Source of the DNA: Rhodopila globiformis
GTDB lineage: Bacteria; Pseudomonadota; Alphaproteobacteria; Acetobacterales; Acetobacteraceae
NCBI RefSeq assembly: GCF_002937115.1
Contig: NZ_NHRY01000064.1
Location: 1 to 35,636, forward strand
Reading direction: 5' to 3'
Length of the DNA stretch: 35,636 bases
The stretch's first letter is position 1. Each line of letters opens with the position of its first letter. Positions 17,896 through 18,564 of this stretch are shown piece by piece. A program made the translations under genes and the position numbers. The notes below the pieces were generated by a model. It had not been told where the DNA came from and made no database searches. It saw nothing but the letters and a program-made list of their open reading frames with translations.

Positions 17896-18564
17896 TCAGG
17901 CTGTCGATCGCAGCACCGCCAGCGTTTCTTCTGGCTCTGGCCGGCGCGTGTAATCTGGATCTGCCTCGATTGACAGCACCGTCCCCCCTTTCGCCATCAC
18001 AATGCGGGCAGGAACCGGCAAGCGCCAACTGCTGTCGCCGTCGAATGTCGGCAGGTCGATGCCGAAGCCGGCATAGACCTTGATCAGGTCGTCGGGCAGT
18101 TGCATTGCGATCCCGTAGGCTTCAGCCACCTTGTTCCCGGCGTCGAACAGCAGGCCGAAGGCAAGCTTCATCTGCGCGCGCATCTCGTGCGAGATCGCCG
18201 GCAACTGCGGTGAGATCACCACCAGTTCGGCACCAAGAGCATGAATTTCCGGCAGGACTGCGTTCAGAGCTGACAGCTCATGTCGGCAGTAGGGTCACCA
18301 TCGGCCGCGGAAGAAGGAAACAACCAGCGGCCCGCGCGCGACCAGAGCCGCCGAGGACACGTCCGTGCCATCCTGATTGGCCAACGTGAATGCCGGGCCG
18401 GGTTGCCCGACCTTGGGCATGTTTGCCTGGTAGCCCGAGGCACGCTGCTCCGCCGTCACGCGATGCATGATTGCCAGGGCCTCGGGCGGGATCCGACCGG
18501 GCTTGCTGCCGTCGCCTTCCGCTGCGCGGCGGGTGGTGTCGAGGGAGTCCTTGAGAGAGACCAT
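17896..18564 (-). CDS. Peroxiredoxin-like protein with in-frame UGA at the peroxidatic Cys (probable selenoprotein)
   Basis: Read through the UGA at 18297-18295, this gives a 222-residue protein of the AhpC/TSA 'peroxiredoxin-like' family at its normal full length. Before the UGA (residues 1-89) are the family helices and the strand PLVVSFFRGRW. After it come PYCRHELSALNAVLPEI, then FGIDLPTFDGDSSWRLPVPARIV and PDYTRRPEPEETL. The family motif is RGxWCPYC; here the first Cys (residue 90) is UGA and the second is kept, giving a U-P-Y-C redox motif. Both flanks are in the same frame with no other stop or frameshift, and a SECIS-like hairpin follows the UGA. The start at 18564 has GAAAGG upstream. 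The likely role is thiol/selenol peroxide or disulfide reduction. The alternative is a pseudogene made by one TGC/TGT-to-TGA change. No selA, selB, selC or selD gene is in the window. Confidence 0.72.
18257..18297 (-). promoter_or_regulatory. UGA codon with candidate bacterial SECIS hairpin
   Basis: On the minus strand, UGA (18297-18295) is followed by a lower stem ACTGC/GCAGT (18290-18286 with 18261-18257), an internal loop of 6 and 5 bases, and an upper stem GAGCT/AGCTC (18279-18275 with 18271-18267) capped by the loop GUC (18274-18272). The apical G lies 21 bases after UGA and starts the loop. This agrees with known bacterial SECIS rules: a loop G within the first bases, a stem of at least 4 bp, and about 16-37 bases from UGA. 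Confidence 0.6.

Follow-up and report, generated by a model that had tools for sequence, protein, structure and literature searches.

A UGA-containing peroxiredoxin-like gene of Rhodopila globiformis that very probably encodes a selenoprotein

The stretch of DNA analysed here (the window) comprises 35,636 nucleotides of contig NZ_NHRY01000064.1 from the alphaproteobacterium Rhodopila globiformis (assembly GCF_002937115.1), and it contains a gene for a peroxiredoxin-like protein with a TGA in frame. The gene lies on the minus strand and runs from an ATG at 18564 to a TGA stop at 17898..17896, 223 codons including the stop; its sole internal stop, the TGA of codon 90 (18297..18295), stands in the context FFRGRW-stop-PYCRHEL. 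Comparison of related sequences indicates that this is very probably a selenoprotein gene, with selenocysteine (Sec) at codon 90, and not the site of a nonsense mutation. Our results on its frame and motif, the Sec/Cys exchange among homologues, an RNA hairpin, the Sec machinery, selection and the predicted fold were obtained by computation. The features of the locus are as follows.

17896..18564, minus strand: predicted selenoprotein coding sequence, AhpC/TSA peroxiredoxin-like with UxxC, 222 residues plus TGA stop (PF00578)
18295..18297, minus strand: TGA codon 90, predicted Sec, first residue of U-P-Y-C (comparison of homologue codons)
18286..18288, minus strand: TGC codon 93, second (Cys) residue of UxxC, invariant in our alignment A1
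18267..18279, minus strand: core hairpin of a putative bacterial Sec insertion sequence (SECIS), GAGC / 5-nt loop starting U-G / GCUC (homologue comparison)
18257..18290, minus strand: extended fold predicted for the SECIS, with ACUGC/GCAGU as outer stem and a single unpaired U in the inner stem (minimum free energy structure)
17896..18222, minus strand: downstream fragment from mechanical open reading frame (ORF) calling, 108 aa from a GTG; not a gene of its own, but liable to be annotated as one

The read-through product has 222 residues (about 24 kDa by length) and matches two Pfam models: PF00578 AhpC-TSA at 79.5 bits (cut-off 26) over residues 52-180, and PF08534 Redoxin at 59.4 bits (cut-off 26.6) over residues 51-156. 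As these matches cover both sides of codon 90, the domain spans the TGA. Among the NCBIfam models, none matched the protein above its cut-off. A plus-strand reading of 17896..18564 was rejected, having three stops in frame and no gene. An earlier note on this DNA had described one continuous frame of 223 codons with a TGA at codon 90, flanked by FFRGRW and PYCRHEL; its coordinates are correct, and the same context is found in the minus-strand frame.

How is codon 90 occupied in other genomes? Homologues came from four sources: 59 genomes (R. globiformis and 58 relatives), 19 of which gave a match at 1e-20; 385 genomes of the same class, 27 with a match at 1e-45; 398 genomes of the phylum, 12 with a match at 1e-45; and a scan of named genomes, from which the best 2 of 69 loci were used, the other 67 (L045-L111, short or distant matches) lying outside the codon-90 count. 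The three genome sets overlap, and the class and phylum searches scored at most seven candidates per genome at E 1e-45, so that weaker copies may be missed. We examined 63 loci and dropped one (L043, the same gene as L018), leaving 62 distinct homologues. Codon 90 is TGA in 22 of these and a Cys codon in the other 40 (TGC in 29, TGT in 11), a distribution that excludes a chance TGA; the comparison with relatives proposed in the earlier note has thus turned up UGA and Cys at one codon, without frame decay. In each TGA copy this codon is the only stop within the aligned stretch. Stray stops were seen in two Cys copies, at residue 85 (TAG) of L141 and residue 16 of L034, neither at the active-site codon. 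The TAG of L141 (G348:C114:8619-9221) replaces a Tyr of many homologues, with Cys kept at 90; its genome has a tRNA-Sec and gave no SelA match at 1e-60.

The TGA copies share an RNA hairpin, formed from codons 6-10 after the TGA (usually GAG CTG xxx GCT yTG), with the arrangement GAGC / 5-nt loop / GCYY. All four core pairs are found in 19/22 TGA copies vs 0/40 Cys copies (Fisher p 4e-13), and the difference persists among copies encoding the same E-L-x-A peptide (19/22 vs 0/25, p 2e-10), where the Ala codon is GCT in 21/22 TGA copies and in just 1/25 Cys copies. The sequence GAGCUGNNNGCYYUG occurs in 20 of the 22. RNAalifold returned the core hairpin for the 20 distinct TGA sequences, the loop starting U-G in every one, and found no structure for 39 distinct Cys sequences. 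Measured against synonymous recodings that keep each gene's own codon use, folding is stronger in TGA copies (mean z -1.87) than in Cys copies (-0.44; p 4e-6). Dinucleotide shuffles of the window hairpin gave z -0.41 over 59 nt and -2.04 over 40 nt; this test is weak alone, which is why a comparative test of the hairpin is needed.

Synonymous sites are conserved at the same place. In the TGA set the six top conservation windows begin -1 to +4 codons from codon 90 (best 0.75, median 0.43), whereas those of the Cys set are located elsewhere; mean synonymous-codon identity in TGA copies is 0.69 over the 14 codons after the TGA vs 0.41 in the rest of the gene, the corresponding values for Cys copies being 0.49 and 0.43. 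A bacterial SECIS is described in PMC1088965 as a stem-loop just 3' of the UGA with a small apical loop containing G, and the window gene has a hairpin of this kind 3' of its UGA, with a small G-containing loop.

The sequence on either side of the TGA is under purifying selection. The ratio of nonsynonymous to synonymous substitution rates (dN/dS), computed for five pairs of TGA copies, lies at 0.06-0.27 for the part ahead of the TGA as well as for the part that follows the hairpin, with the caveat that dS is saturated in one upstream comparison and that several dS values exceed 1; the earlier view that the frame is intact on either side is borne out. In an unrooted tree of 62 rows, built with the Sec/Cys column masked, 21 of the 22 TGA genes form one clade (support 98/95) that extends across ten family codes of the class. 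The remaining TGA gene, L044, falls outside this clade and groups with 17 Cys rows at a support of 92/84, without a star. The most parsimonious labelling of the tree takes two Sec/Cys changes, though there may have been just one, and with no root a gain of Sec looks the same as a loss. L044 (CAMYND010000034.1) is found in a genome labelled Thermodesulfovibrionia (Nitrospirota) that also has SelB, and it may represent a second origin, a transfer or mis-binning. Some genomes hold more than one copy: that of R. globiformis itself has a Cys paralogue of the window gene with 47% identity (L036, G000:C52:18015-18659), and another carries two TGA copies in tandem (L142 and L148, G332:C11:4742-6275).

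Does the genome have the means to read UGA as Sec? The R. globiformis assembly (98.6% complete) encodes SelB (420 bits), SelD (290 bits) and SelA (549 bits), the last immediately beside tRNA-Sec (selC; 72.9 bits, ARAGORN anticodon tca) on contig C266, so that all four genes the earlier note had thought worth looking for are present. A tRNA search of the window found none, selC being on another contig. Elsewhere in this genome a formate dehydrogenase-N alpha gene (L163, G000:C76:31610-34615, minus strand) has one in-frame TGA (asterisk in ARI*HSASVPSL) and probably codes for a further selenoprotein, which would give Sec another user there.

Sec machinery accompanies the TGA copies throughout. 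Forty homologue-bearing genomes were tested for tRNA-Sec and SelA, half with a TGA copy and half with Cys copies only: tRNA-Sec was present in 20/20 vs 5/20 and SelA in 20/20 vs 4/20. A further 12 Cys-only relatives yielded tRNA-Sec in seven, making 12/32 Cys-only genomes overall. SelB was tested in the 59-genome set and two more genomes; in that set tRNA-Sec occurs in 30 genomes and SelB in 28, and all six TGA genomes have both. Eight genomes of the genus (G004, G007, G009, G011, G016, G022, G027 and G032) have two SelB matches above the cut-off each, on separate contigs; one of the two is partial in G004, G009 and G027, and G027 has no tRNA-Sec match.

The earlier note had placed the UGA exactly at the peroxidatic Cys, and here our analysis departs from it. 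When the protein is aligned to the solved structure 2cx3, Sec90 falls on the Ser of FSPVC and Cys93 on its Cys, which we take to be the peroxidatic one. Judged by this alignment, Sec90 matches the Ser/Thr of the peroxiredoxin (T/S)xxC and opens a UxxC of thioredoxin type, with Cys93 as the second redox residue; the earlier note had likewise put the UGA at the first Cys of a CxxC. The peroxidatic motif of typical peroxiredoxins is PxxxTxxC, and the window protein reads RGRW-U-PYC there. An AlphaFold model made with Cys for Sec has a peroxiredoxin fold (pLDDT 96.1) with residue 90 just ahead of helix 91-102.

The state of the databases deserves comment. A search of about 5.8 billion proteins gave 461 hits at 1e-30, of which we considered the best 120; only candidates with a length 0.55-1.75 times that of the query were admitted, a limit below which N-terminal pieces of about 89 residues fall. 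Among the matches listed, no full-length protein comes nearer to the window protein than about 54%, 116 of the 120 read C at the site, one reads W and three are off pattern; a Sec copy stored with C for U is indistinguishable from a Cys protein. For the nearest relative we found a single entry, P0024 (126 residues, named 'redoxin domain-containing protein'), which matches L018 after its TGA, and P0109 is likewise a C-terminal piece, 90% identical over 41% of the query. The group is thus open to truncation by automatic annotation, and the earlier expectation that annotation would split the gene fits the entry P0024. The entry with W at the site (P0034, RGVWWPYC, on a 1142-base contig) may stem from a TGA copy that was translated under a different code, UGA being rendered as Trp.

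We conclude, with a probability of roughly 95%, that the gene encodes a 222-residue redox selenoprotein of the AhpC/TSA fold in which UGA90 is read as Sec by way of a SECIS and SelB. The insertion of Sec, the substrate, the reductant and the catalytic cycle are what we infer, as follows. The mRNA would bear a SECIS hairpin beginning 15 nt past UGA90; SelA would make Sec-tRNA-Sec with selenophosphate supplied by SelD, and SelB carrying this tRNA would bind the hairpin and decode UGA90 as Sec rather than as termination. Sec90, at the N-terminus of the active-site helix, would be the nucleophile of U-P-Y-C and would most likely attack a peroxide or an oxidised thiol/disulfide substrate, after which a Sec90-Cys93 selenenylsulfide would form and be reset by a thioredoxin-type reductant.

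Several observations weigh against this conclusion. Three of the 22 TGA copies (L138, L143 and L148) have one unmatched pair each in the hairpin core; just 12/22 TGA copies fold better than their synonymous recodings at p<0.05 (4/40 Cys copies do so), and the window copy alone is borderline (z -2.0, p 0.050). The TGA copies show no two-sided compensatory change in the core, because its 5' arm is invariant among them, so support for the hairpin comes from contrast and conservation, not covariation. The motif was moreover defined once the data had been inspected, and the sequences, being related, do not count as independent. Sec machinery is present in many genomes that have no TGA copy (tRNA-Sec is present in 7/13 Cys-only genomes of the 59-genome set), which makes the machinery contrast weaker among close relatives. 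Finally, the enzyme may be a peroxidase or a thiol-disulfide oxidoreductase: its fold is that of a peroxiredoxin, but it lacks PxxxTxxC.

What, then, of other explanations for the TGA? TGC and TGT are one base away from it, and the TAG of L141 demonstrates that a stray in-frame stop does exist in a relative, so the codon might have arisen lately from a Cys codon and have disabled the gene, leaving a pseudogene. This is extremely improbable given that 22 distinct genes have the same codon, that selection has kept the sequence on either side, that a hairpin goes with the TGA and that the TGA clade extends across ten family codes; about twenty related genomes retain the arrangement, and the gene is therefore intact. 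A code change or suppressor that makes UGA stand for Trp or some other ordinary amino acid would account for the W of P0034, but TGA terminates 12 of 20 long ORFs picked in the window as well as the window gene itself, every one of the 40 non-TGA homologues has a Cys codon at the site and the genome's tRNA-Sec has the anticodon tca; we consider such decoding extremely unlikely.

That two proteins are made, translation stopping at UGA90 and restarting downstream, could be read from the two ORFs of mechanical ORF calling and from the C-terminal entry P0024. Forty Cys homologues nevertheless read through codon 90 in one frame, the next in-frame ATG/GTG/TTG of the window copy comes 72 bases beyond the TGA, at 18222, and the break would fall within the active-site motif of what is predicted to be a single fold, so a split gene is very improbable. 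A further alternative concerns function and is compatible with UGA90 being read as Sec: the selenoprotein may be mainly a thiol-disulfide oxidoreductase, or reduce other substrates, instead of being a peroxidase. In the alignment the counterpart of its UxxC in ResA-like and thioredoxin-family chains is their CxxC, the fold matches of the model include ResA-type chains, and the peroxidase motif is missing; we give this variant slightly less than an even chance.

Gene neighbourhoods vary. The window gene is flanked by a zinc-type alcohol dehydrogenase, an unassigned ORF, a MarR-type regulator and an MFS transporter, and the nine ORFs flanking five other TGA copies comprise TauD, a phosphorylase, a luciferase-like monooxygenase, two GST, two EamA, a winged-helix protein and a lipocalin. 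Within this sample no operon partner is common to most copies; GST (G001, G010), EamA (G010, G023) and a winged-helix regulator (window, G041) recur twice each. Proximity to sel genes was seen just in G125, where an AIRS-domain (selD-like) gene, selA and selB precede the gene within 0.3 kb on the opposite strand and tRNA-Sec lies about 5 kb away on the same contig, and more loosely in G157, where selA is within about 8 kb.

How does the protein compare with known selenoproteins? It shares the AhpC/TSA domain with the Sec-containing peroxiredoxin PrxU (NCBIfam NF040737) but scores 23.1 bits against a cut-off of 270, and the Sec of PrxU is in TxxU, not UxxC. SelL-related redox proteins (NF040769) show a distant Prx-like similarity (29.6 bits, below the cut-off of 120). 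Several Cys homologues of the window protein bear the name 'peroxiredoxin-like family protein', that of cd02970, of which the window protein is presumably a member. Table 1 of PMC13188914 lists cd02970 with UxxS, in contrast to the UxxC found here, and PF00578 with UxxC/UxxU. Publication of Prx-like selenoproteins with UxxC goes back to 2005 at the latest. PMC1088965 reports 22 Prx-like sequences with UXXC instead of TXXU from the Sargasso Sea, and PMC2398784 gives 225 sequences of Prx-like 1 (PF00578, UxxC) from the Global Ocean Sampling (GOS) data. As far as these descriptions go, the likeness is close: PF00578, Sec as the first residue of a thioredoxin-like UxxC and a SECIS directly downstream, and the window protein has the feature that marks the Prx-like UxxC group, PF00578 with UxxC replacing TxxU. 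The present clade carries RGxWUPYC and may be distinct from the printed Prx-like group, whose representative is WP_010940744.1. The strings WUPYC, RGxWCPYC, GWCPYCN and WUPYCN were absent from literature text, a search covering neither figures nor supplements, so printed alignments may contain the group.

The earlier description of a probable new selenoprotein therefore holds for the gene, and perhaps for a subfamily, but not for the kind, since Prx-like UxxC proteins had already been published. We think it somewhat better than an even bet that the RGxWUPYC proteins form a distinct, so far unmodelled subfamily: within the class, a single lineage that has stayed Sec in ten families or more, that has a conserved SECIS sequence of its own and that coexists with Cys paralogues in some of its cells, L044 then pointing to a second origin or transfer. 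In either case the genes add a well-supported and broadly conserved selenoprotein group and, if the class is as labelled, do so in the Alphaproteobacteria, where according to PMC8124441 Sec serves primarily in Sec-containing formate dehydrogenase. The group also offers natural Sec/Cys pairs, even in one genome (the window gene and its paralogue on C52), for asking what Sec buys the enzyme.
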